Origin: Saprospiraceae bacterium
GTDB lineage: Bacteria; Bacteroidota; Bacteroidia; Chitinophagales; Saprospiraceae
Assembly (NCBI GenBank): GCA_026129545.1
Contig: JAHCHX010000001.1
Coordinates: 805,501-869,500 of the forward strand
DNA length: 64,000 nt
Direction of reading: 5' to 3'
Shown piece by piece: positions 1 to 14,380 of this stretch. The stretch's first letter is position 1. Every line of letters begins with the position of its first letter. The notes beneath the pieces were generated by a model. It saw nothing but the letters and a program-made list of their open reading frames with translations, made no database searches and was not told the origin of the DNA. The translations under genes and the position numbers were made by a program.

Positions 1-2
1 CC

Positions 3-368
3 GTGCACATACTCACCGCCCGACACGAGCTGCACCCCCACCCGCTGAGCGCCGAGGAAATGAGCGAGCTCAGCCGAAAACGCGCTGCTCGCACCCAAAA
101 CCTGCCCACCGTGGCCCCCGTGCCATATTCAGCCCCGGTGGTGGTGATACCGCCCCAAGTGGAGCCAACCGGTGGATTTGGCTGGAGCGATGCCGCCACT
201 CTATCCATTGCAGGGGCGGCTGCATTCTTCATCGTGCGCATGATATTGCGCTGGGTCAACAACAACGAGAAACTCGTCCGATATGCACTTCGTCATTTGC
301 TACGACATCGAAAACGACCGCCTCCGCGCTCGAACCGCAAAAATCCTCGAAAGACACGGCTGCCATAG
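3..368 (+). CDS. Possible small membrane protein, 5' end outside the window
   Basis: An open frame enters from the left edge and ends at 368. It has a proline-rich middle and one hydrophobic stretch (around residues 66-82, containing IAGAAAFFIV) followed by basic residues, as expected of a single-pass membrane protein. I do not recognise a family. The last 86 bases overlap the start of cas2 in another frame, which is long for a real overlap, so the real gene could end earlier or the frame could be spurious. No cas1 features are visible in it, so cas1, if present, lies further left. Confidence 0.25.
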   Translation: MHILTARHELHPHPLSAEEMSELSRKRAARTQNLPTVAPVPYSAPVVVIPPQVEPTGGFGWSDAATLSIAGAAAFFIVRMILRWVNNNEKLVRYALRHLLRHRKRPPPRSNRKNPRKTRLP

Positions 369-588
369 GGTGCAGCGCTCGGTGTTTGTGGCACCTTATT
401 TGGAGCGCAAGCACCTTGTGCGCCTGCGCGGTGCCTTGAAGCAATGTTATGCCCGACAACCCCTGTCGCCCGACGACAGCCTGCTCTTGGTGCCACTGCG
501 CGAGGAATATGTGGCCGACATAGAGGTGCTGGGGGTTAACAATATAATTACGGCCCTGGCTGAAAAGCCTTTGAAAATAATGCTGTGA
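283..588 (+). CDS. cas2: CRISPR-associated endoribonuclease Cas2
   Basis: The 101-residue product has the normal Cas2 length and opening: a first beta strand with YDIEND (residues 8-13), then RTAKILERHG and RVQRSVFVA, the pattern of the ferredoxin-like Cas2 fold. Cas2 dimers bridge Cas1 dimers in the spacer-integration complex. The gene ends 61 bases before the first CRISPR repeat and points into the array, so it sits at the likely leader end. Its partner cas1 is not in the window and is presumably to the left. The start is the first ATG that gives the full first strand. Confidence 0.93.
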   Translation: MHFVICYDIENDRLRARTAKILERHGCHRVQRSVFVAPYLERKHLVRLRGALKQCYARQPLSPDDSLLLVPLREEYVADIEVLGVNNIITALAEKPLKIML

Positions 589-649
589 AACACTTGGCGA
601 AGCGGGAAGGAGTTGACTACCTTCGCAGTACGCATAAGCCGTATTACGG
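589..649 (+). promoter_or_regulatory. Probable short CRISPR leader
   Basis: These 61 bases separate the cas2 stop from the first repeat. They contain a perfect 11-base odd palindrome (CCGTATTACGG) directly against the first repeat. No clear TAnnTTTG promoter is visible, so array transcription may start inside or upstream of cas2. The leader assignment rests on the repeat orientation argument given for the array. Confidence 0.4.
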
Positions 650-3600
650 CTCTAAAAGCATATTCGAGCAAGGAAGAATTGCGACTTTCGGCGGAGAATT
701 TTTTGAGGTTTTTGATGATGCCTCTAAAAGCATATTCGAGCAAGGAAGAATTGCGACGATTTGATAATCTGTTTGAACAAAATGAGAACCTTCACTCTAA
801 AAGCATATTCGAGCAAGGAAGAATTGCGACTCAGGAAACGTCTATCCTGTAGAAAATGCAATTACTCTAAAAGCATATTCGAGCAAGGAAGAATTGCGAC
901 ATTATTAACTGAATATGTGTAGGTTATCTGACATTCTCTAAAAGCATATTCGAGCAAGGAAGAATTGCGACAAAATTCTCATAATAATTATGAAAATTAA
1001 AGTGGTCTCTAAAAGCATATTCGAGCAAGGAAGAATTGCGACCCTTCCGAAAGGAAAATTGAGGGGAAACCCTGTGTAACTCTAAAAGCATATTCGAGCA
1101 AGGAAGAATTGCGACCCCTGTAATTCAGGTCGGAGAAGTCAAAAGAGGCTCCTCTAAAAGCATATTCGAGCAAGGAAGAATTGCGACAGTCAGGGTCAAT
1201 TTGGCCAGATAATCTGGTCGACTCTAAAAGCATATTCGAGCAAGGAAGAATTGCGACAATGGTATAATTTCCGGCCTTATTCGTCGGCAGGTCCTCTAAA
1301 AGCATATTCGAGCAAGGAAGAATTGCGACTGTAGGGAATAATCGTGACCCCTGTTTCATTTTTCCTCTAAAAGCATATTCGAGCAAGGAAGAATTGCGAC
1401 TCCGCGCCCGGAAACTGGCTGCTAACCGCGCCTGTCTCTAAAAGCATATTCGAGCAAGGAAGAATTGCGACCCCAAGACTTTTGCCAGCGACCTTTTGCC
1501 CAGCTATCTCTAAAAGCATATTCGAGCAAGGAAGAATTGCGACTCTTTTCTGAAAAAATGTGGTTTTAGATTCATCATCTCTCTAAAAGCATATTCGAGC
1601 AAGGAAGAATTGCGACAGTTGGCTATTAGCTCTTCGTAGAAGAAGAAACTCTCTAAAAGCATATTCGAGCAAGGAAGAATTGCGACTGTATTCGTGCCGT
1701 TCGTGAGTTTCCCCCAGATTACTCTAAAAGCATATTCGAGCAAGGAAGAATTGCGACAATAAAGACCTGTGACCAATAGTAAATTTCTGCCTCTCTAAAA
1801 GCATATTCGAGCAAGGAAGAATTGCGACTTCTCCGCTGTCACTAATACTAGTTTCTAGTACGTCTCTAAAAGCATATTCGAGCAAGGAAGAATTGCGACC
1901 CTACTTCTAGATTCGCGGCAGTCTGCTTAGGATTTCTCTAAAAGCATATTCGAGCAAGGAAGAATTGCGACTCGAAAGCAACTAACGGAGGGGCTCAACG
2001 GGCTACTCTCTAAAAGCATATTCGAGCAAGGAAGAATTGCGACTTCTTGGTTCATTGTTGGCATAACTGTGGGTTGCTCTAAAAGCATATTCGAGCAAGG
2101 AAGAATTGCGACTGCTCATTAGGATTTTAGTGAGAGATTCTAACATCTTCTCTAAAAGCATATTCGAGCAAGGAAGAATTGCGACTGGAAAAATTTTACA
2201 TGCCTCAACTTGATGAATGCTCTAAAAGCATATTCGAGCAAGGAAGAATTGCGACGCTACCGAGGCTGAATAGAACAGCAAACCAACCATCCTCTAAAAG
2301 CATATTCGAGCAAGGAAGAATTGCGACTATGGTAACATGTGTAGACGCAAATTAGCATTGACTCTAAAAGCATATTCGAGCAAGGAAGAATTGCGACGAT
2401 CTCCAATGATCTCACATACAGTATTAGATGGATCTCTAAAAGCATATTCGAGCAAGGAAGAATTGCGACTTTTAAGTGCAATCCCACTGGGAAAGTAGTT
2501 GCCCCTCTAAAAGCATATTCGAGCAAGGAAGAATTGCGACTCTTTTACGAAGATAGAGCACTTTTTAAAGATTACTCTAAAAGCATATTCGAGCAAGGAA
2601 GAATTGCGACCTCCAACGAGGAAAGATACAAAATGCTCTTATAGTACTCTAAAAGCATATTCGAGCAAGGAAGAATTGCGACGTTTTAAGTGCAATCCCA
2701 CCGAAGAGAACGTGGTTCTCTAAAAGCATATTCGAGCAAGGAAGAATTGCGACTTCTTTCAGGAACGCTACTAACTCTTCAAAGTAGAGCTCTAAAAGCA
2801 TATTCGAGCAAGGAAGAATTGCGACTGCCGCGATGTACACTCAGGGATGATACTCGGCTGCTCTAAAAGCATATTCGAGCAAGGAAGAATTGCGACGTGT
2901 TCATTGATTAAGGAGCCCCCACTCCTTAATCTCTCTAAAAGCATATTCGAGCAAGGAAGAATTGCGACCTATGGCAGAGGAGAGAACGGCACTGTAATCG
3001 TCATCCTCTAAAAGCATATTCGAGCAAGGAAGAATTGCGACTCCCCGCGGCCATTAAAGAGGCCGCGAAAGCCAATGGCTCTAAAAGCATATTCGAGCAA
3101 GGAAGAATTGCGACTGTTCATTTATCAAGGAGCTCCAACCCCTTGACTTCTCTAAAAGCATATTCGAGCAAGGAAGAATTGCGACCACTAAACTTGTATT
3201 GTGCTGCTGCGTCGTACTCACTCTAAAAGCATATTCGAGCAAGGAAGAATTGCGACCTTTGACATCTCTTTCACCAATGCTAAATTTAGATACTCTAAAA
3301 GCATATTCGAGCAAGGAAGAATTGCGACAGTTCTTAGGTAATAACTCTAAGTACTTCTTATCTCTCTAAAAGCATATTCGAGCAAGGAAGAATTGCGACG
3401 GGCCAAATTTGTATTCGTGCCGCTCGTAGTTTTCCTCTAAAAGCATATTCGAGCAAGGAAGAATTGCGACTTTAAAGCTCTTTCTGTGCTAGTATTATTT
3501 GGTATCCTCTAAAAGCATATTCGAGCAAGGAAGAATTGCGACGGTTTTCTGACCAAAGGTTGGCAATGTATCACCCATCTCTAAAAGCATATTCGAGCAA

Positions 3601-4400
3601 GGAAGAATTGCGACATGACGGAATACAGTAAAGTCCGAACATAGATAGCTCTAAAAGCATATTCGAGCAAGGAAGAATTGCGACTCCATCAATATCTACA
3701 ATGATACAATTTTTTTTGTCCTCTAAAAGCATATTCGAGCAAGGAAGAATTGCGACCTTTGCTTATCTTTTTCATACTCTTTTATATTTTTTCTCTAAAA
3801 GCATATTCGAGCAAGGAAGAATTGCGACCCTTGAGAGAAAGAACCGTTATTTTTATATTTCAAGCCTCTAAAAGCATATTCGAGCAAGGAAGAATTGCGA
3901 CGTTGGATTTGGTAATTCTGACGAAAATTCTTTTGAACTCTAAAAGCATATTCGAGCAAGGAAGAATTGCGACCCTTTACTATTTCGGCGATGTCATATT
4001 CAATTTGTTCTCTAAAAGCATATTCGAGCAAGGAAGAATTGCGACTGCCTTTGTCCTTGATGAGCGGTGATTTCTGAATGACTCTAAAAGCATATTCGAG
4101 CAAGGAAGAATTGCGACGGTTGAAGAAAGAATACATCTTGGACGTGGATGACTCTAAAAGCATATTCGAGCAAGGAAGAATTGCGACCTACCATCTGCTT
4201 GATGGTAGCGAGCATGTTCTCAGTCTCTAAAAGCATATTCGAGCAAGGAAGAATTGCGACGTGACTACATTTGTGCATATGATTATCCGTCACCTCTAAA
4301 AGCATATTCGAGCAAGGAAGAATTGCGACGTTTTCCCCAATTTTCCAAAGAAGATTGCCGCTGTCTCTAAAAGCATATTCGAGCAAGGAAGAATTGCGAC
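650..4400 (+). CRISPR. CRISPR array, 53 repeats and 52 spacers, type III-B associated
   Basis: A 36-bp repeat recurs 53 times, starting at 650, 722, 795, 865 and so on, with the last at 4365-4400. I saw no repeat variants. Spacers are 33-37 bases. The repeat begins CTCTAAAAGC and ends AATTGCGAC on the plus strand. Its last eight bases, ATTGCGAC, match the usual type III crRNA 5' handle pattern (compare ATTGAAAC; the Thermus Cmr handle is, from memory, identical), so the array is probably transcribed rightward, in the same direction as cas2 and cas6. A short GCAA...TTGC inverted repeat near the 3' end could be the Cas6 recognition hairpin. The lack of repeat decay at either end suggests an array maintained until recently. 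Confidence 0.98.
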
Positions 4401-4722
4401 GACCCTTATGAAATCCTCCCCACCCCACACACTCACCCGTCGCGCCACTCACCCAATACCCCACAGCAAGGAAGTGCTTTCCGCCGCGACGACTGCCTCC
4501 CCTTCCACGCCCCCCCCCAGCCAGCGAACACTCAAGCCCCATTTTTGCCACCTACCTGACATCCGGTACTTTTTTTCGACAAATGGCTTGCGCTTTTTCG
4601 CACAAAACACCTTACTTGCAGCGCGTTTGAAAACCGAGCCGCCCCTCCCGACCATACCCGCTCCCAGCGACCAACGCACCATCGAAACTGTTTTTGCAAA
4701 CAATCCAATCCACGCACGCCAG
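4401..4722. other. Gap between CRISPR array and cas6
   Basis: The cas6 reading frame is open back to about 4408, but the translated stretch before 4723 is low-complexity proline, threonine and serine sequence with no Cas6 character. I therefore treat it as noncoding. It is GC-rich, C-rich on the plus strand, and shows no clear promoter. It could carry the cas6 promoter or the distal end of the array. Confidence 0.5.
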
Positions 4723-5415
4723 ATGAGGAAACTTCGCATCTTATCCGTTTCCTTCGACACGCACCTCCAACCTTGGGAACTCCCGCACTTCCGCGGCGCG
4801 GTCGCTCGAAAAGTAGGCCTCGAACACGACTGGTTTCACAACCACAACAACGACACAGGCTCCTACCACCAGCGTTATCCCCTCATTCAGTACAAGTTGG
4901 ACACCCACAAAGGGCAAATCCGCCCCATGCTACTCTGTCTCGAACAAGGCATCGAGGAGGCACACCACTTCTTCAGTCAACCCGACTGGAGCCTGCGCGT
5001 CGGCGAGCAGCGACACGACATGCGCATCGCCCAACTCAACGTGAACCAATACACCCTCCACGTGCAAGAGCCCCCCTCACGCTACCGCCTCCACAAATGG
5101 AGGGCCTTCAACCCCGAAAACTACGAGCACTACCGCACCCTCACGGGCATCGCCGAGCAGTTCGCCTTCCTCGAGCGCCTGCTGGCCACCCACATTATCG
5201 CCTTCGCCGCAGGCGTGGGCTGGGAGGCCGCGCCGCGCTTCGAGGTGAAAATCACCGACTTGCTCAAAAAAGAATGGATAGAGCACAAAGGCATCAAAAT
5301 GCTGGCCTTCACCCTCGAGTTCGAGGCCAACATATCGCTGCCCGAATACATCGGGCTGGGCAAAGGCGCGGCGCTAGGCTTCGGAGTGGTGCGGCCGCAA
5401 AAAAATAGACATTGA
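4723..5415 (+). CDS. cas6: CRISPR pre-crRNA endoribonuclease Cas6
   Basis: The 230-residue product, counted from the ATG at 4723 (MRKLRILSVSFD), has a RAMP-type first strand and ends with the glycine-rich loop GLGKGAALGFGVV (about residues 212-224), the hallmark of Cas6 C-terminal domains. The FRGAVARKVG segment early on is typical of the Bacteroidota Cas6 group. Cas6 cuts the repeat hairpins of the precursor transcript to release crRNAs with an 8-nt 5' handle. The gene lies 322 bases after the array on the same strand. A longer frame exists upstream, but the extra residues look non-homologous. Confidence 0.85.
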   Translation: MRKLRILSVSFDTHLQPWELPHFRGAVARKVGLEHDWFHNHNNDTGSYHQRYPLIQYKLDTHKGQIRPMLLCLEQGIEEAHHFFSQPDWSLRVGEQRHDMRIAQLNVNQYTLHVQEPPSRYRLHKWRAFNPENYEHYRTLTGIAEQFAFLERLLATHIIAFAAGVGWEAAPRFEVKITDLLKKEWIEHKGIKMLAFTLEFEANISLPEYIGLGKGAALGFGVVRPQKNRH

Positions 5416-5440
5416 ACATTTCAAAAAATTCTAAATCCCT

Positions 5441-5472
5441 AATCGTAAATCGTAAATCGTAAATCGTAAATT
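5441..5472. repeat. Short heptamer repeat (about 4 copies)
   Basis: The heptamer AATCGTA is repeated about four times. This is the reverse complement of the GATTTAC unit that makes up the long array at 16953-17166. It is followed by related CTAAATCC words. The same simple repeat family therefore occurs in inverted orientation on both sides of the cmr operon. Confidence 0.7.
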
Positions 5473-5518
5473 CTAAATCCCCAATTCTAAATCCTAAATT
5501 TTCAACCAACACCATAAC

Positions 5519-6055
5519 ATGAAAATCTACCAACTCAAAATCACGCTCAAGCACATCAAGCCGCCCATCTGGCGCTGCGTCGAGGTGCCTGCCGACATCG
5601 GCCTGAAAGACCTTTGCGACACGCTCATTGATGTGATGGGCTGGGACGGCTACCACCTGATGAGTCTCAATATCGGCGGAGAGGAGTTTTTCGGCGACAA
5701 AGAAAGCGCCGATGAAATGGGTGGCCGCGTGATGGGCAAAACCAAACTCAACAAACTCATCACCGCGCCCAAGCAAAAATTCCTGCTCGAATACGACTTC
5801 GGCGACGGCTGGGAACACGATATCGTTTTGGAAAAAATACTCGACCCCGAACCCGGTGCCTCCTATCCGCGCTGCACCGCCGGCAAACGCGCCTGTCCGC
5901 CCGAGGACTGCGGCGGGCCGTGGGGATACGAGCACCTTTTGGCCGTGCTGAACAACCCCAAAAACCCGGAACATGAGAGCATGCTGGAATGGGTCGGAGG
6001 GGAGTTTGATGTGGAGGGGTTTAGCGTGGAGGAGGTGAATGGGAGGTTGGGGTGA
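5519..6055 (+). CDS. Plasmid pRiA4b ORF-3-like protein
   Basis: The 178-residue product opens with YQLKITLKHIKPPIWR and contains FGDGWEHDIVLE (around residues 96-107), PRCTAGKRACPPEDCGG and the W/GGEFD ending. This is the recognisable signature of the pRiA4b ORF-3 family (PF07929), often annotated as an IS1096 passenger protein. Its biochemical role is not established. It is complete and in the same orientation as cas6, but separated by 103 bases of simple repeats, so it is probably a neighbour in the accessory region rather than a CRISPR component. Confidence 0.85.
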   Translation: MKIYQLKITLKHIKPPIWRCVEVPADIGLKDLCDTLIDVMGWDGYHLMSLNIGGEEFFGDKESADEMGGRVMGKTKLNKLITAPKQKFLLEYDFGDGWEHDIVLEKILDPEPGASYPRCTAGKRACPPEDCGGPWGYEHLLAVLNNPKNPEHESMLEWVGGEFDVEGFSVEEVNGRLG

Positions 6056-6060
6056 CGAAA

Positions 6061-6173
6061 ATTGTACATTGGTCATTGAACATTGTACATTGAACATTAA
6101 TGACTTGGAAATTTTTAAATTTTTGAAATGTACAATGTGCAATGGCCAATTTTCAATGTACAATTGACGCCAG
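6061..6173. repeat. Imperfect inverted repeat of TTGTACATTG words
   Basis: The left arm has three TTG(T)ACATTG-like words and the right arm, 6128-6173, carries their reverse complements (AATGTACAAT at both its ends). The arms enclose an AT-rich centre and could form a long imperfect hairpin. Such an element between genes looks like a repetitive extragenic or small non-autonomous element, but no target duplication was seen. Confidence 0.55.
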
Positions 6174-6181
6174 ATCTAAAT

Positions 6182-6334
6182 ATGGAACACGCTGAACGAA
6201 AATACGATCTCGAAGACCGACTCGTGGAGTTCGCGGGGATGGTGATTGAGGTGGTGGAAAAACTGCCGAAGTCACTTGCAGCCAAACACCTCGGCCATTC
6301 CTTAACAACAGAACACTCAAAAAGAATGGGTTGA
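6182..6334 (+). pseudogene. Truncated four-helix bundle protein (23S rRNA IVS family)
   Basis: From the ATG at 6182 the sequence reads RKYDLEDRLVEFAG and then VVEKLPKSLAAKHLGHSL, which is the conserved first helix and turn of the four-helix bundle family (PF05635). These proteins are normally about 115-130 residues long. Here homology stops after about 40 residues and the frame ends at residue 50, so this is a 5' fragment. It sits between the inverted repeat at 6061-6173 and the membrane protein gene, and marks a rearrangement junction. Confidence 0.65.
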
Positions 6335-6350
6335 ACAAAAACAAAATCGA

Positions 6351-7178
6351 ATGACCTATCAAGTTCACATCAAGCCAATTTACTGGTTTCTTCTTGCAAT
6401 TCTTCTTGTTCTAGGAGTTTGGAGTTATTCCGTTTGGGCAAGCTATGGGTACCTGCCCAGCACAGTCGCGAAACTGAAAAACGAGGTCGAATTGCTAAAA
6501 GCACCAGCGGACTCCGCCAAGTCAAGTACTACGCTTGATATGCAGAAATTGGAACTCAAAATTGACCGGGTAGAAACAAGCATCCGCAACGATTTTGTCC
6601 TCATCCAAAAACTCGGCATCCCGCTGACGGTGATCGCCTTCGTCCTGATGTTTTGGTCGGTCTATAAATCTGCGCTTGGCTTTGCGCTGGAAAGAGCAAA
6701 AGAAACGGTTGACCGCTACTATCTGCCGGACGAAGAAAGGTTCAAGCGCGAGAAAAAACTGCTCGTGCTGACAAAAGAAGGTAGCGATTCCGGATTTATC
6801 CGACAGATGTTGAAAGACACGGGGTTTCTGGCCGCAGCAACTATCCCTGATAATGTGAAAAGACTTGACGAAGACACGCTATATAACCTTTTGGATGGGG
6901 GAAATTATGACCTGATTTTTTTCAATAATGAGGTTGCATCCGATGCGCCAAAAGAGACTCCAAATCCTTTTTCTGATGATGAATTGCTATTATGCTTGGA
7001 CAGAACATCATCAGGCACGATGATTTTTCATTTCGGAAGGCCTAATCTTTCACAAACACCAATGGCGAATAGACGGGTTGCCTCTGCTGGCTTCAAATCC
7101 CAAATCTACGGTAACCTCATCAATGCCCTGAAATACCAACAATATCTGCGCAAACCATCCACCACAAAACAGGCATAA
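6351..7178 (+). CDS. Predicted type III CRISPR-associated membrane effector (2 TM + Rossmann-like domain)
   Basis: The 275-residue product has a first membrane segment at about 11-30 (WFLLAILLVLGVW), a 37-80 coiled-coil-like region, a second membrane segment at about 87-105 and a soluble C-terminal domain at 135-268. That domain alternates predicted strands and helices: KKLLVLT, a helix with FIRQMLKD, NYDLIFFN, then TMIFHFGR and a final helix GNLINALKYQQ. This is the layout of a Rossmann-like ligand-binding fold. The stop codon overlaps the cmr1 start by one base, so it is the first gene of the cmr operon. By analogy with known membrane effectors (Cam1, Csx23) I infer a cyclic-oligoadenylate-triggered membrane protein. 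I see no clear CARF or SAVED signature. A homologous stand-alone domain is encoded at 14377-14778. Confidence 0.6.
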   Translation: MTYQVHIKPIYWFLLAILLVLGVWSYSVWASYGYLPSTVAKLKNEVELLKAPADSAKSSTTLDMQKLELKIDRVETSIRNDFVLIQKLGIPLTVIAFVLMFWSVYKSALGFALERAKETVDRYYLPDEERFKREKKLLVLTKEGSDSGFIRQMLKDTGFLAAATIPDNVKRLDEDTLYNLLDGGNYDLIFFNNEVASDAPKETPNPFSDDELLLCLDRTSSGTMIFHFGRPNLSQTPMANRRVASAGFKSQIYGNLINALKYQQYLRKPSTTKQA

Positions 7179-8048
7179 TGCCCTCACTCATTTGGAATAT
7201 GGAGACTATTACGTTTAACTGCCGCTTTATCACCCCCGCCTTCCTCGGTGGCGCCGACCCTAAAGGCACGCCGGAACTTCGTGCGCCTTCGATTAAGGGA
7301 GCGTTGCGGTTTTGGTGGCGGGCGATGAATGGTTATTTAGTCAAGAAAGAAAATGGTAACCCAACTTATCAATATTTGCTGAAAGAAGATGAAGATATCT
7401 TTGGAGGAATTTATCAAGTAATGCAAAAGAGCCCAATTATTGTCAGGGTCGTAGAAAAAAATATGCGCTATACAAAAGGAGGAGATATTTTCCGAGGCGG
7501 CCAAATAGAAGGGATTGAATACCTATTCTATTCGTTGAAGCACCATAAAAGGGATGACTTGGGGTTCGATACAGAAAGTAAATTTGACATCATTTTTTCG
7601 TGTCGGGAGGAAAACCGGGATATTCTACTAAAAGCCCTTGCATCATTTTGGTTGCTGGTTAACCTTGGCAGTTTAGGTACGCGAGCGAGGCGTTGCGCTG
7701 GCGCATTTTGCATTGATTCTATCGAAGACAAAATGGGGATTTTACAAGATAGAATATCTTTTTTTACAGAGACCGACGAAACAACTATTGATTTTTTGAA
7801 AGCTAACTTCAAGAAAATTTCCGAATTGATTGGCTCGAAAAAACCAGTTTTATTCAAAAAATATAGTTTATTGAATCAGACCTCCCCCGCATATTTAAGC
7901 AATCAAACCTTTTCCACATGGCAAGATGCAGTCAATTCAATCGGAGGAGAGCTCCGGTCCACAAGAAAAGGGAAAACAAGCCGTATAAAATCTGAACGAA
8001 CTTTTACGATAGAAACATTAGATAAGAAAGCGGCCTTTGGTATTCCAG

Positions 8049-8815
8049 GGTAGTGGAAATATTTAACTGACAATGTAATTTTGCGCCATGATAACGGAAG
8101 TTCGTCGTTGCCACCGCTGTGAAAGCAGCAACATCGTCAAAAACGGGAAAAACCGCTCCGGCACCCAAACCTACAAGTGCAAAGATTGTGGTTGCTGCCG
8201 GGTATTGGACAGCAAGCAACCCAGCAGGAACATGGACCCCGAACTGGTGGAGCGTGCCTACCAAGAGCGGCAAAGCCTTCGAGGCACGGGGCGCTTGTTG
8301 AATGTCTCGCATCGGACGGTACTCAATTGGTTAAAAAAAAAAGCCCGGCAACTCCCCCCATTCAAAACCACCATTGAGGAAGGACAAGCCGACGACCAGT
8401 TAGAGGCGGACGAAATGTTCACTTACATCGCCGTGAAAATCAATCAAGTACGGGTCTGGATTGTCCAGTGCTGTAGAACTAGGCAGATACTTTCCTTTTT
8501 CATTGGCGATGGCTCGATGGACTCCTGCAAGCGCCTTTGGCGAAAACTACCCTACGAGTACCAAAAATGCTTGAGTTTCAGCGATTTTTGGACGGCGTAC
8601 CAATGCTTGCCCAACGAAACACACTACATGGTCGGCAAGGAGACCGGTCTGACAAACCATGTTGAAAGGCTGAACAACACCTTGCGCCAGCGTATCAGCC
8701 GATTCGTCCGAAAAACCCTCTCCTTCTCCAAAAAGGAGTATATGCTCAATCTGCACTTCAAACTATTCGCATACCACTACAACTTAAATGTCATCAGTTA
8801 AATATTTCCACTACC
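8049..8815 (+). mobile_element. IS1-family insertion sequence inside cmr1
   Basis: The element is 767 bp, with perfect 22-bp terminal inverted repeats at 8049-8070 and 8794-8815, beginning GGTAGTGG as in IS1 ends. It is flanked by a perfect 9-bp direct repeat, GTATTCCAG, at 8040-8048 and 8816-8824, which matches the 8-9 bp duplication made by IS1 elements. It contains one transposase gene. The intact ends, the intact duplication and the perfectly restorable host frame indicate a recent insertion. Confidence 0.96.
8088..8801 (+). CDS. IS1-family transposase (single-frame)
   Basis: The 237-residue product has an N-terminal zinc-binding pair (CHRCESSNIVKNG, then YKCKDCGCC), a helix-turn-helix region (RGTGRLLNVSHRTVLNWLKKK) and the IS1 catalytic part: QLEADEMFTYI, then SFSDFWTAY, and the ending LTNHVERLNNTLRQRISRF and KTLSFSKKE. 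Classical IS1 makes this protein by a -1 frameshift between insA and insB; here both halves are in one frame. A run of ten A bases at 8333-8342 sits at the junction between the DNA-binding and catalytic parts and could allow slippage to a shorter DNA-binding product. Confidence 0.95.
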   Translation: MITEVRRCHRCESSNIVKNGKNRSGTQTYKCKDCGCCRVLDSKQPSRNMDPELVERAYQERQSLRGTGRLLNVSHRTVLNWLKKKARQLPPFKTTIEEGQADDQLEADEMFTYIAVKINQVRVWIVQCCRTRQILSFFIGDGSMDSCKRLWRKLPYEYQKCLSFSDFWTAYQCLPNETHYMVGKETGLTNHVERLNNTLRQRISRFVRKTLSFSKKEYMLNLHFKLFAYHYNLNVIS

Positions 8816-9092
8816 GTATTCCAGTAGGTGTTTTTAGTGACAATCCAGTAACTTTCAAAGAGAATGAACGGCGCGCAAGTCCGATCTACCTATCTGTGAT
8901 TTTTAATAAAAATAATAGCAAATTCCACTGGGTTGTCACTCACCTGGAAGGTGAGTTTATGCCAGACAATGACACGATTGTCTTTACCAGTAAAAATAGA
9001 AATGTTCGAAATAAAGATCATTCTTGGTCTAAAGAAGATGACAGCCTTATAAAATCTTTCATGCAAAAAATCAAAAGCAAAGCCCAGCAGAT

Positions 9093-10952
9093 ATGACCCA
9101 CCTCTTCCTCTTCACCATCGGCCCAGTCCAATCCTTCATCGCGCAAGCGCGGAAGGTGCACGACCTGTACAGTGGCAGCCGGATATTGTCGGAGTTGTGC
9201 AAGGTCGCTGCTGACCATTTTGAAAAGAAGCACGGCGGCGAAGTCATTTTCCCTGACATCAGCAGCGACGCTATTCCCAACCGGTTTCTTGGGAAAATCA
9301 CCGCTGCTGATGACTTGGCATCCATAGGCAAATCGGTTGCCGATGCGGTTCAGGACTATTGGAGAATGCAATTTGACGAACCTCAAAAAGGAGTTGAATT
9401 TTCGCTTGCTGAGTTACTTGACCCTACGACTTATCACGAAGCCAAACGCCAAATCGAGCAGCACCTCGACATTCAGTGGCTTTTCCAGCCGCTTGCAGAC
9501 GAAACCGACGCGACCTACCGCAGGGCTTACGACGAATTGAACAAAAACCTCAATGCAGTCAAAAACACCCGGCCATTCTTCACACCCAATGAGAAGGGAA
9601 GGAAATGCAGTCTTGATGGCGAGCGGAATGTGATTTTCTACAGATTGGCCAACGGGCAAGTTATTAGACAACAAGACAAGGCACCGCTCTACTCCGTTTC
9701 AAATGTGACAATCGGCTATAACGACCTAAGCCAGTTGAAACTTCGCCACTTACAGCCCGGCGAGGGTTTGAGTGCAGTCAGTATGCTAAAAAGGTTTCAG
9801 GAGTTTGAGGCAGGCGACTTCCCGGACACGGCAGAGTTTGCCCTTGCTGACACTATGCACGAGGTAGGCTCAACCAGCCTTTCAAGCATGACAAAGATTT
9901 TTGGCCACAGCCATCCTAAACACCTGAACTGGCAACTGTTATTTGAAGAAAATCTGAACGAGCGATATTTTGAGAAGCAGGGATTATCCGCCCAAAAACT
10001 GCAAGATGCGAAAGATATTCAAAAAGCATTGGCTGATAAAGCCAAAGAGCATGGCCGCAAACTCGAAAAATACTACGCCCTCGTCGTTTTCGACGGCGAC
10101 CACATGGGCGAATGGTGGAAAGGCACGCACCTGAAACACGGTGTGCATCTGGAGACATTCCACAAAACCCTGACGGGAAAGTTGGCCGATTTCGCCAAAG
10201 CAGTGCGGGCCGAATACCCCAAAGGTGACCATCGGGGCTGGGTCATTTACGCCGGCGGCGACGATTTCCTCGGCTTTTTCAATTTGCACCACTTGACAGG
10301 GGCGTTGGACTTTCTGCGCGATACCTACCAACAGACCGTTCACGAACAACTTTCAGCGCATATCGAAGGTGAGCACAAACTGACCTTTTCCGCTGGGGTT
10401 TGCATCGCGCATTACAAGGAGCCGCTTTCGCTGGTGCTCGCACAAGCACGCGAAATGGAAAAAGATGCCAAAAACTTGCGGGATAAAAAAGACGCAATCG
10501 GCATTGGGGTCATACCCGGCAGCGGACAAACTGCCGAGGTCGTGCTGCCGTTTGAGGATTTCCCTAACCTTGGCAAAGTCATTGCCGCTTTGCAAACGCC
10601 GGACTTCTCCAATGCTTTTGTCAGCAAAGCCAGGGCAGAATTGACAGCCTTTGCGGATGACGACGGCAAACTAAAGGAAAAGCTCTTGCCAACTGCGCAC
10701 AGCCTGCTCGACCGTGCCGTAAGCCGCGCCTGCAACCTGACGAAAAACGAGGGCGAATCGGACGAAGAGTTTCAGAAGCGGAAAAAAGAGAAAGTCGAAC
10801 CATTGCAAACCGCAGTCAAAAACTTGCTCAACGCGCATAACCAAAAACTCAGCGCCTTTTTCGACGCGCTTGACATAGCGGATTTCATCGAGCGCCAAAC
10901 CCATATCTCTCCCACCAAAAACGAGCCTGCAGAACATGAAACTACAACTTGA
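9093..10952 (+). CDS. cas10: Type III-B Cas10 / Cmr2, cyclase type without HD domain
   Basis: The 619-residue product starts directly with FTIGPVQSFIAQARK, the first palm-domain motif of Cmr2, so the N-terminal HD nuclease domain found in many Cas10 proteins is absent. The cyclase motif GGDD is at residues 388-391 (YAGGDDFLGFF), and the preceding metal-site motif FDGDHMGEWW is at about 331-340. The protein should convert ATP to cyclic oligoadenylates when the complex binds target RNA. It overlaps the cmr1 remnant by ATGA and cmr3 by 17 bases. Expression may suffer from polarity of the IS1 insertion just upstream. Without HD, immunity should depend on RNA cleavage and on signalling effectors. 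Confidence 0.95.
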   Translation: MTHLFLFTIGPVQSFIAQARKVHDLYSGSRILSELCKVAADHFEKKHGGEVIFPDISSDAIPNRFLGKITAADDLASIGKSVADAVQDYWRMQFDEPQKGVEFSLAELLDPTTYHEAKRQIEQHLDIQWLFQPLADETDATYRRAYDELNKNLNAVKNTRPFFTPNEKGRKCSLDGERNVIFYRLANGQVIRQQDKAPLYSVSNVTIGYNDLSQLKLRHLQPGEGLSAVSMLKRFQEFEAGDFPDTAEFALADTMHEVGSTSLSSMTKIFGHSHPKHLNWQLLFEENLNERYFEKQGLSAQKLQDAKDIQKALADKAKEHGRKLEKYYALVVFDGDHMGEWWKGTHLKHGVHLETFHKTLTGKLADFAKAVRAEYPKGDHRGWVIYAGGDDFLGFFNLHHLTGALDFLRDTYQQTVHEQLSAHIEGEHKLTFSAGVCIAHYKEPLSLVLAQAREMEKDAKNLRDKKDAIGIGVIPGSGQTAEVVLPFEDFPNLGKVIAALQTPDFSNAFVSKARAELTAFADDDGKLKEKLLPTAHSLLDRAVSRACNLTKNEGESDEEFQKRKKEKVEPLQTAVKNLLNAHNQKLSAFFDALDIADFIERQTHISPTKNEPAEHETTT

Positions 10953-12012
10953 CGCCCTCGACCCGCTCTTTTTCCGGGATGGCCGACCCTTCGCGCTCGG
11001 CGAGGAGTCGTATGCCGATGGCATATTCCCGCCCCTGCCCTCGACGGTGCGCGGCGCGCTGCGTTCGATGTGGATGTCCGAGCGTCTCGGCGTGCCTGAT
11101 GCCGACAAAGATGCCTTGGCCACAGCCTCTATCGGGGTGGAACTGGAGTATTTTGGCTTGGGGATTGCGGGCAAACCCGTTTTTCCCGCACCCCTTGATT
11201 TGTTCTTCCCAAAGCCCGAAAAGGGCACTCCGGCTCAGCCGATGAAATTGATAGACAAAATATCCGCCTCATCCTGCCCGCCCAAAGTGAGCCACCTTTT
11301 CAAGGCAGAAGCGGATGGGAAAACGGAACCTGTGCATGGGCACTTACTTGATTTTGAAACGATGCAGCACTATTTGAACGGCGACTCTTCGGCTCCATTT
11401 GAGACGATACGCCTGTCGGATCTGGTCAAGCGCGAGCACAAAATAGGTATCGGGCGCGATCGCGAAACCAATCGCACGAAGGAGGGGCTGCTTTTCCGCC
11501 TCGTCGCCAATCGTTTTGAGGATGAAAAACATGGGGGGCTTAGCCTCTTGGTGGAATTGAACGCGCCCGAATCGCAGCCCTTCAAACTTGCGAGCCATGC
11601 GGTGCTCCCCCTCGGCGGTGAGCGGCGCAGCGTAACAGCAAAAACTACGAGCGTTGACTTGCTCCCGAAAAGGCCGAAGATTCAAGGGGAATTGCTGAAA
11701 ATTGTCTTGCTCACGCCGGCACTTTGCAACGCATGGTTTCCTGAAATTCCGGGGCTTACTTTGGTCGCAGCAGCCGTCGGGAAACCGGTTTCCGTGGGCG
11801 GCTGGGATGTGTTGGAGCAGCAACCCAAGCCCATGCGCCGCGCCATACCCGCTGGAAGTGTCTTTCTGTTTCAAGCCGAATCCGAAGCAAAGGCCAACGA
11901 AATGGCCGAACAATTGCACGGCGAATCACTCTGCAGCCCCGGCGAAGACCAAAAGAACGGCTTCGGCCTTTGCCTTGTCAGTCAACTGTTTAACACTCAA
12001 CTTCCAAGATAA
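10936..12012 (+). CDS. cmr3: Type III-B RAMP protein Cmr3
   Basis: The 358-residue product begins LDALDPLFFRDGRPFA, the clear Cmr3 opening, followed by FPPLPSTVRGALRS. It ends with GEDQKNGFGLCLV, a RAMP glycine loop. The middle contains the IGIGRDRETNRTKEGLLFR segment typical of Cmr3. In the effector complex Cmr3 sits with Cas10 at the foot and holds the 5' handle of the crRNA. It overlaps cas10 by 17 bases, and its stop overlaps the cmr4 start by one base, so the three genes are translationally coupled. Confidence 0.93.
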   Translation: MKLQLDALDPLFFRDGRPFALGEESYADGIFPPLPSTVRGALRSMWMSERLGVPDADKDALATASIGVELEYFGLGIAGKPVFPAPLDLFFPKPEKGTPAQPMKLIDKISASSCPPKVSHLFKAEADGKTEPVHGHLLDFETMQHYLNGDSSAPFETIRLSDLVKREHKIGIGRDRETNRTKEGLLFRLVANRFEDEKHGGLSLLVELNAPESQPFKLASHAVLPLGGERRSVTAKTTSVDLLPKRPKIQGELLKIVLLTPALCNAWFPEIPGLTLVAAAVGKPVSVGGWDVLEQQPKPMRRAIPAGSVFLFQAESEAKANEMAEQLHGESLCSPGEDQKNGFGLCLVSQLFNTQLPR

Positions 12013-12926
12013 TGTTTCAAATCGCAAAACCCATTTTTTTCATCTGCGAAACGCCCCTTCATGCGGGCGCAGGCGGAGGCATCGGCACGGAGTTGCCCAT
12101 TCAGCGCGAAGCGCACACCCTTTTTCCGAAAGTAGAAGCCTCGGGCATCAAAGGGGCCTTTCGGGATGTTTTTGAGCGAAAATTTACTGGAAAGGGGCTT
12201 CACCAAGATTTAATTGCCGTTTTCGGGCACCCGACTGAAGGTGATTTGAACGCCGGCGCGCTCGGCCTGACCGATGGGCGGCTTCTGCTTTTTCCGGTGC
12301 GCAGTCGGCAGGGTGTATTCGCTTGGACAACCTGCCCGCGGGTGCTCACCCGTTTTGAGCGCGACTTGCGTGTGAGCGCGGCAAACGGTGGCGGTGAAGA
12401 AGTAAGTAATTTGGCGGATTTGGTTAATTCTGTTTCAAAAAACACGGTGCCGCAAAGCAGCATAATCACCAATGCTGGAAAGGTTTTTTTAGAGGAATAC
12501 AGCATTGAAGTAACCAAAGATGCAGATGCAAATGGGGCGACAAGCAAACTCGCCGAAGCCTTGGCCAATATCCTCGGAATTCCAGAACTGCCCACACAGT
12601 TTGTGGTCATCCCGGATGAGTATTTTTCAGACTTTGTGCAACACAACACCGAAGTCCATACTCGAATTCGTATCGGGGAAGACGGCGTAGTTGAGGACGG
12701 AGCGCTTTTTTCCGAAGAGCATTTGCCTACGGCGAGTGTGCTTTATTCGTTGGCCATGGCTCACCCTGAATTCAAAAAAGATGGGCGCAACGCGGCGCAA
12801 ATTCTTAACATCTTCCACAATGGCCTTCCGGGAATCGTCCAAATAGGCGGCAACGCCACGCTCGGCAAAGGCATCGTCCGTATCACCAAACCTTTTTTTG
12901 AAAATGAGCAAGCCACAAAATCTTGA
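12012..12926 (+). CDS. cmr4: Type III-B backbone RAMP protein Cmr4
   Basis: The 304-residue product carries the Cmr4 signature: ETPLHAGAGGGIG, then LPIQREAHTLFPKVEASGIKGA, and a glycine-rich GNATLGKGIVRI close to the end. Cmr4 forms the backbone helix of the complex and cuts target RNA every six bases. In Pyrococcus Cmr4 the cleavage residue is D26 in the sequence VVDQPIQRE; here the aligned residue is E27 (GTELPIQRE) and the loop looks one residue shorter. Cleavage may therefore be altered or weak. The gene overlaps cmr5 by 23 bases. Confidence 0.93.
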   Translation: MFQIAKPIFFICETPLHAGAGGGIGTELPIQREAHTLFPKVEASGIKGAFRDVFERKFTGKGLHQDLIAVFGHPTEGDLNAGALGLTDGRLLLFPVRSRQGVFAWTTCPRVLTRFERDLRVSAANGGGEEVSNLADLVNSVSKNTVPQSSIITNAGKVFLEEYSIEVTKDADANGATSKLAEALANILGIPELPTQFVVIPDEYFSDFVQHNTEVHTRIRIGEDGVVEDGALFSEEHLPTASVLYSLAMAHPEFKKDGRNAAQILNIFHNGLPGIVQIGGNATLGKGIVRITKPFFENEQATKS

Positions 12927-13362
12927 AGCCAAGCGGGCTTTGAAGGCGTTCACTTTTGCTGAAATTGGGAACAAAAAGCAGAAGGACACCAAAAACAAAT
13001 TCAACTATTCGGCAGCCGTTCAGGAGCTGCCTTCCATGATTCGCATGAATGGCCTGCGAGCGACTATGGCTTTTTTTTACTCAAAAAAAGGTCAGCATCT
13101 GGAGGTCTTTGAAAATGTGCGCGATTGGTTCAATGATGACGACGAGCCGACAAAGTTCATGAGGGCAAAACTTCAGGCATCGCCAGAAAACATAAAGCCT
13201 GACGGTTTTATGAAAGTCTTGTTAGAATTAACAGATGATGAGTACCGAATCGTGCAAGCCGAAACATTTACACTGGCCAATTGGATGATCCGATTTGTAA
13301 AAACCGAGAAATCAACCTCTCCTCAATCAAATTCAACGCCCGATGATACTGCGCAACCTTAA
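12904..13362 (+). CDS. cmr5: Type III-B small subunit Cmr5
   Basis: The 152-residue product from the ATG at 12904 (MSKPQNLEAKRALKA) is helical and contains AAVQELPSMIRMNGLRATMAF, the typical Cmr5 helix pair, followed by SKKGQHLEVF. Cmr5 lines the groove for target RNA along the Cmr4 backbone. A TTG two codons upstream is possible, but the ATG is preferred. It overlaps cmr4 by 23 bases and cmr6 by 20 bases. Confidence 0.88.
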   Translation: MSKPQNLEAKRALKAFTFAEIGNKKQKDTKNKFNYSAAVQELPSMIRMNGLRATMAFFYSKKGQHLEVFENVRDWFNDDDEPTKFMRAKLQASPENIKPDGFMKVLLELTDDEYRIVQAETFTLANWMIRFVKTEKSTSPQSNSTPDDTAQP

Positions 13363-14380
13363 ACTTGAATCGTTCGACCAGAGCCGGAATGTCATACTGG
13401 TCGAGGCCGATGGCCAGCGGAGAAAGGTCTCGGCTTCCGCAGCCGTATTGCGGAAAGCCTTCATCACCCGTGCCTGGCTCGACCGGACATTGGTCAGTTG
13501 CGCCGTAGGCAAATGCAGGCTCGAAGCGGAAGCGGAACAACGCGGCAATCAGTGGGTGGCCACCCAAGTCTGGCTTGCAATGGAAAAAAGCGTTACAAAT
13601 GAATCAAAAAGTATGTTCAAAAATTTTGGGCTTGAATTGAACAAGCCTGCGTTGAATCCTCAAAAAACAGGGTCAAATTTGTTTGATATTTCAAAAATGG
13701 ATGAACCCATCACTAAACTTGGGGCGCGATTTTCACCTGAAAAAAACGACCTCTGTAACTTCCGTTTCGACAATGAATTTTTAGAAAAACTCGCCGCTCG
13801 AAATCTGAAAAATGCCGCAGCAATCGCCCCAAGTGGGTTGATTCAGGTAGATTTTACTCCGGACTGGCGTATGGTCACAGGCATGGGCGAAGCATCCGTC
13901 TATAAAACGAACATGACCTTGCACCCTGTTTATGGCGTGCCCTATATCCCGGCTTCGAGCATCAAAGGCATACTGCGCCATTACCTCTCGGAGTTCGAGG
14001 AAGGCCAAAAGCACATCGAAAAGATTTTTGGAAAAAACGACGAAGAATCCAGCACCAAGAATCCCGTGCGCGGGCAGTGCATCTTCTTCGATGCCTTCCC
14101 GACCAAAGCCCCGCGCATCGAACTGGACGTGATGACGCCACACTACCCCAAATACTACGGCGAAGGCCAACCCCCGGCCGATTGGCAAAGCCCTACGCCC
14201 ATCCATTTTTTGACGGTGGGGCAAGGGACGCCTTTCCGATTTCTCATCGGCTTGCCGGACAATGAATTAAAAGAAAAATTAGAAACCTGGCTCATAGAGG
14301 CTTTGACGACAAGGGGGCTTGGCGCCAAATCGGCTGTGGGTTATGGCTATTGGAAGCCATACAACGCAGAACAAGCATGA
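13343..14380 (+). CDS. cmr6: Type III-B RAMP protein Cmr6
   Basis: The 345-residue product has a lead segment of about 90 residues rich in strands, then the Cmr6 core: YGVPYIPASSIKGILRHYL (about residues 196-214), DVMTPHYPKYYGEG and SPTPIHFLTVGQGTPFRF, ending with a GLGAKSAVGYG glycine loop. Cmr6 sits near the 3' end of the crRNA with Cmr1. The stop codon shares ATGA with the next gene. The N-terminal part is longer than in compact Cmr6 proteins. Confidence 0.92.
   Translation: MILRNLKLESFDQSRNVILVEADGQRRKVSASAAVLRKAFITRAWLDRTLVSCAVGKCRLEAEAEQRGNQWVATQVWLAMEKSVTNESKSMFKNFGLELNKPALNPQKTGSNLFDISKMDEPITKLGARFSPEKNDLCNFRFDNEFLEKLAARNLKNAAAIAPSGLIQVDFTPDWRMVTGMGEASVYKTNMTLHPVYGVPYIPASSIKGILRHYLSEFEEGQKHIEKIFGKNDEESSTKNPVRGQCIFFDAFPTKAPRIELDVMTPHYPKYYGEGQPPADWQSPTPIHFLTVGQGTPFRFLIGLPDNELKEKLETWLIEALTTRGLGAKSAVGYGYWKPYNAEQA

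Follow-up and report, generated by a model that had tools for sequence, protein, structure and literature searches.

Why should a CRISPR array carry pairs of spacers that closely resemble each other without being copies? The question was raised by an array near the start of a 64,000-nt window (the whole stretch of DNA analyzed) of a Saprospiraceae bacterium (GCA_026129545.1, contig JAHCHX010000001.1, positions 805,501 to 869,500). The array (650..4400, + strand) comprised 53 identical 36-nt repeats (CTCTAAAAGCATATTCGAGCAAGGAAGAATTGCGAC; 0/53 variants) and 52 unique spacers of 33 to 37 nt. A first-pass annotation had picked out four pairs of spacers as diverged homologs and attributed them to repeated sampling of the same genes in a family of variant phages. 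All eight of its coordinates corresponded to true spacers, paired as 14/30, 15/39, 26/29, and 32/35.

The array lay between cas2 (283..588, + strand) and cas6 (4408..5415, + strand), with cas1 just upstream of the window (L009:13083-14102) and encoding a Cas1 without a reverse transcriptase (RT). The position of cas2, together with a conserved flank common to the window and a congener, places the leader presumptively at the 5' end of the array. A 228-aa ORF between cas1 and cas2 (L009:14682-15368, equivalent to window 1-368) had a likely signal peptide and a membrane segment, and no Pfam match was found for it. Beyond the array, the gene order was cas6, a gene for a NARF-domain membrane protein (6351-7178), cmr1, cas10, cmr3, cmr4, cmr5, and cmr6. 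The NARF-domain protein, directly before cmr1, weakly matched a PADLOC family of membrane proteins linked to type III systems and is a candidate signal-responsive effector.

The locus is type III-B. The cas10/cmr2 gene (9093..10952, + strand; PADLOC Cas10, E 1.6e-76) encoded the palm GGDD motif, which was seen in the ORF itself; cmr3 (10936..12012), cmr4 (12012..12926), cmr5 (12898..13362), and cmr6 (13343..14380) followed in order on the + strand, and the array, cas1, cas2, and cas6 were adjacent. The subtype call rests on genes other than cmr1, which is not intact: its 5' part (7178..8053, + strand) is interrupted by an IS1-family element (approximately 8051..8809, + strand; transposase 8088-8801) with inverted ends and a 9-bp flanking duplication (GTATTCCAG). 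Seven other near full-length copies of this element occurred in the genome at 99 to 100% identity, so the break in cmr1 was probably recent. The III-B effector may be impaired now, and its present-day activity is doubtful.

Spacer similarity was assessed by aligning the 52 spacers locally, each with every other and on both strands, and comparing the scores with those of 100 dinucleotide shuffles, which reached 28 at most and a maximum of 23 on average. Pairs 26/29 and 15/39 each scored 36 and 32/35 scored 35, so that three of the four proposed homologies lay beyond all 100 shuffled sets, whereas 14/30, scoring 19, was within chance when taken alone. Differences at scattered sites, as originally described, were found in 15/39 and 32/35. 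Spacer 15 (1687..1721, - strand; target strand coding NLGETHERHEY) and spacer 39 (3400..3434, - strand; ENYERHEYKFG) matched at 21/25 nt with a register shift of 10 nt. In contrast, spacer 26 (2470..2504, - strand; GNYFPSGIALK) and spacer 29 (2683..2717, - strand; NHVLFGGIALK) had in common a block of 18 identical nt beside essentially unrelated sequence.

The peptide pairs FYEELIA/YFEELVA, ETHERHEY/ENYERHEY, and SGIALK/GGIALK had been read correctly. The remaining peptide, SLINE, was likewise open in both spacer 32 (2897..2932, - strand) and spacer 35 (3115..3149, - strand), but its frame contained five non-synonymous and only two synonymous changes, and the same bases formed a hairpin. On the target strand, spacer 32 folded into a hairpin whose stem had 10 Watson-Crick base pairs, with ATGAAC after it. 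Spacer 35, matching at 27/35 nt, had the same hairpin; one change was compensatory, both bases of the pair being altered, and two preserved pairing through G-U, only one base being altered in each, so that all ten model pairs were kept. Given this excess of non-synonymous change in the SLINE frame, 32/35 is better described by a conserved hairpin with compensatory change than by the peptide. ATGAAC followed the hairpin in both spacers, an arrangement that would fit a control element ahead of a start codon.

Pair 14/30 was clarified by a second array. When all window spacers were searched against 42 genomes of the genus, spacer 14 (1617..1650, - strand; target strand coding SFFFYEELIAN) matched, outside the window array, 27/30 nt on contig C6 of the same genome. 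The match was spacer 30 of an array there (C6-30; L124:8389-8429), whose target strand reads FGPSFFFYEELVA, including FFFYEELVA; the two differed by two synonymous and one non-synonymous codon changes. Spacer 30 of the window array (2754..2789, - strand), the partner of 14 and weak alone, reads LYFEELVAFLKE. The peptide score of 14/30 was 27, and codon-shuffled sets each gave about two pairs scoring at least 26; given the C6 spacer, kinship of 14 and 30 is probable, and still weaker than that of the other three pairs. Across 398 Saprospiraceae genomes, the pattern FFFYEEL[IV]A occurred solely in the two arrays of this genome, and thus was not a host gene in those genomes. The C6 array (L124:6207-8905) had 37 repeats and neighboring cas1 and cas2 genes, and a type III-D effector set (L135) was encoded approximately 20 kb further along the contig. 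Its spacer 28 (C6-28; L124:8237-8274) had 26 identical nt in common with a spacer of a congener of another species (L023:16492-16527), in opposite crRNA orientation. At another CRISPR locus of the same genome (L132:12732-18295), a 342-aa RT was encoded just after cas1 and cas2, matching defense-type and retron RT profiles, with cas6 and a short array nearby.

Among 100 relatives, one other genome carried an identical repeat, that of Saprospiraceae bacterium ACE_BAC3 (G008, JAHBTU010000001.1). Its array had 61 spacers and a leader flank nearly identical to that of the window, and its Cas1 and Cas2 were 96% and its Cas6 89% identical to those of the window. Under this identical repeat, the effector was type III-A (Csm) in the congener (L023) versus III-B (Cmr) in the window (283-14380), which would be consistent with replacement of the effector module while the adaptation module was retained. 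Beside its csm genes, the congener encoded a protein that has a ThsB-like TIR domain (L023:2812-3966). No spacers were common to the two arrays. The congener array had also sampled particular sites more than once: a KEFFNGI site by spacers 16, 35, and 38, and probably also 12; an MLLSAEP site twice (20/50); LNYLNN twice (15/30), with four synonymous and no non-synonymous changes; and one hairpin twice, with a 13-nt shift. A predominance of synonymous substitutions in one target-strand frame was clear for the congener pairs 15/30 and 20/50 and for 14/C6-30, while 26/29 and 32/35 had no clean synonymous pattern. As a rule, the target strand contained the frame richest in synonymous changes (15/39, C6-30/14, and congener 15/30, 20/50, and 16/35).

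We consider it quite probable that the members of a pair were acquired independently and on separate occasions from the same site in related mobile elements, most likely DNA phages. The same site was sampled by independent arrays, both within this genome (14 and C6-30) and between species (C6-28 and the congener spacer). In the proposed mechanism, an adaptation module without its own RT would serve a type III effector. The repeat ends in ATTGCGAC, which we take to resemble known type III crRNA 5' handles, so crRNAs carrying the putative 5' handle AUUGCGAC would read the + strand and pair with mRNA transcribed in the sense of the other, coding strand. The conserved reading frames were mostly on the strand that these predicted crRNAs would bind. 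Type III interference needs a transcribed target and is not constrained by a PAM; hence, the spacers kept would be only those antisense to useful transcripts, probably early or strongly expressed ones, and would fall at few sites. When a relative had diverged too far for an old crRNA, a fresh spacer would be gained and kept at the same favored site. In most pairs, a single crRNA could probably not serve both targets, given how far the partners differ, and for this reason both would be kept. A counterpoint is the match of C6-28 to the congener spacer in opposite orientation, which would be unexpected under strict antisense selection if the C6 array is oriented as assigned. The finding is ordinary CRISPR biology and largely expected; the record is unusually clear, a readable account of repeated encounters with one virus family that is borne out by both of these arrays of the genome and paralleled in a second species.

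Repeated sampling of related sites was thus the best-supported part of the original proposal; phages as an established source were not, no protospacer having been found in the records searched. Using blastn, neither all window and congener spacers against 50,697 phage records nor pair members against 72,556 plasmids gave anything beyond one chance-level hit, and pair-specific pattern scans established none among 2.9 million viral contigs, collections that do not cover the viruses of this host. Among the viral contigs, the core of 26/29 had one match, in a portal-like ORF (L012) directly after a large terminase gene. SGIALK was located in the same frame in the most conserved block of this 80-member family, and the exact codons of the core occurred in 4/80 members. 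The ORF was not named a portal by any match to Pfam, PHROG, or PDB, and by our own estimate an 18-nt hit in that collection is close to what chance would give. A portal-like gene as the target of 26/29 is therefore suggestive only, a lead.

The other scans of the viral contigs yielded no matches for the 32/35 pattern, NYLNNGGDI, NYFPSGIALK, or FFFYEEL[IV]A. The core of 15/39 matched two related viral contigs, which were rejected since the flanks did not match, and ERHEYKFG matched two unrelated ORFs, one among phage-tail-like neighbors, that were also discarded. When the 80 portal-family contigs were scanned in six frames with the peptides of all spacers, matches were not clearly more frequent than with shuffled peptides, and a 27-aa composite of tiled congener spacers returned nothing convincing from phages, from PHROGs, or from 199 genomes of Saprospiraceae. 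Spacers 34 and 43 had weak matches within the genus, in an isoleucyl-tRNA-synthetase-like gene and in an opposite-sense ORF, which were set aside as chance.

As a control, the comparison was extended to 17 arrays of the genus, with 1,007 spacers in all. Effector types were taken from profile matches for the main loci, while the I-B call for L152 and L155 came only from similarity of repeat and Cas1, and the type III call for L163 from a GGDD-bearing ORF without a profile test. Similar pairs of at least 30 bits numbered 26, versus 0, 0, and 1 in three shuffles. With long exact copies removed, within-array pairs that had diverged or overlapped only in part amounted to 7/5,185 possible pairs for type III versus 5/33,837 for type I-B (odds ratio 9, p = 3e-4), and to 4/3,859 for type III without the window (p = 0.009); the excess rests on few pairs and is suggestive. 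Duplicated spacers in the I-B arrays of the genus were exact or nearly so, and no cross-array matches linked type III with type I-B arrays among the genus spacers. Spacer GC was 0.40 in the window array versus 0.52 in a I-B array of the same genome (L151/L131; p = 7e-11), and 0.43 versus 0.51 in the type III and I-B arrays of the congener. Self-complementary hairpin spacers (p ≤ 0.05) made up 30/209 in the type III arrays (window 650-4400, L023, L124, and L161) versus 33/518 in I-B (Fisher p 0.001), an excess that was weak once the two arrays that had suggested it were left out (13/96 versus 33/518, p = 0.02). On these data, it is conceivable, albeit rather unlikely in our judgment, that the invaders recorded by the type III arrays of the genus belong to another pool than those recorded by the I-B arrays within the same cells. 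Such a pool would be narrow, AT-richer, fast-diverging, missed or not controlled by DNA targeting, and sampled at few structured transcript sites; DNA-shielding phages would be one example, and elements encountered as RNA another. If the contrast holds, these genomes would be a natural data set for testing whether type III immunity is maintained against other invaders than those that DNA targeting controls.

The alternative that survives best, unlikely as we judge it, dispenses with a family of variants altogether and traces the two spacers of a pair to a single virus genome that contains paralogous or repeated sites, such as repeated tail-fiber domains or duplicated hairpins. The 32/35 hairpin and the 26/29 block with its unrelated flank could indeed be such within-genome repeats. 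However, 14/C6-30 and congener 15/30 diverged as homologs do, by synonymous change in a continuous frame, and the same site was sampled by different arrays, for C6-28 in a different host species.

Far less probable is a small, fast-evolving ssRNA phage (Leviviricetes) as the target, which would explain few sites, synonymous drift, and hairpins together. Hairpins were in excess in the window and congener spacers (z about -3 to -5.5), this phage group is plentiful in activated sludge records, and an RT adjoins another cas1 of this genome. Against this, no blastn match was found in a collection with at least 1,285 records named as ssRNA phage, nor did the 27-aa congener composite have a tblastn match there. 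The Cas1 of the window locus lacks an RT, some spacers resembled genes of DNA viruses (IVGASGKGKTFM, P-loop, in the congener; DKKNCIIVDIDG, HAD-like; and PSGIALK, portal-like), and the type III hairpin excess was weak outside the two arrays noted above. With no match to known Leviviricetes, ssRNA phages were rejected as the main explanation. Chance similarity among 52 short sequences, which would account for 14/30 alone, is more improbable still, being refuted for the three pairs that beat 100/100 shuffled sets and at odds with the 26 genus-wide pairs. Least credible of all is duplication within the array followed by point mutation: exact duplicate spacers do exist in I-B arrays of the genus, but mutated duplicates are excluded here because none of the 53 repeats has changed and the partners are unequal in length and offset in register (10 nt for 15/39), with 4 to 11 differences per pair in the overlap and a synonymous pattern in several pairs.

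Independent sampling of related elements thus remains the preferred reading, and three known systems bear on it. RT-associated type III arrays with hyperdiverse spacers (PMC5513706) are alike in having no identifiable protospacers; unlike them, the window locus has no RT and some of its spacers form families. Marinomonas mediterranea (PMC5576922) also combines III-B with type I in one genome, and its III-B system is reported to acquire spacers from both RNA and DNA and to be able to back up type I. Redundancy set against escape is a plausible framing for such a combination. In the present genome, the arrays of the two types had no homologous spacers and differed in base composition. A further parallel is Thermus thermophilus and phage phiFa (PMC7515739), with no RT in the adaptation module, antisense spacers, few phage sites, and no PAM. 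In Thermus, type III spacers were taken from both strands, and those surviving infection were, by selection, almost all antisense to phage transcripts, mostly in a hot early region (PMC7515739). The present case differs in being a natural record only, and in that its favored sites are common to diverged relatives rather than located within one phage.
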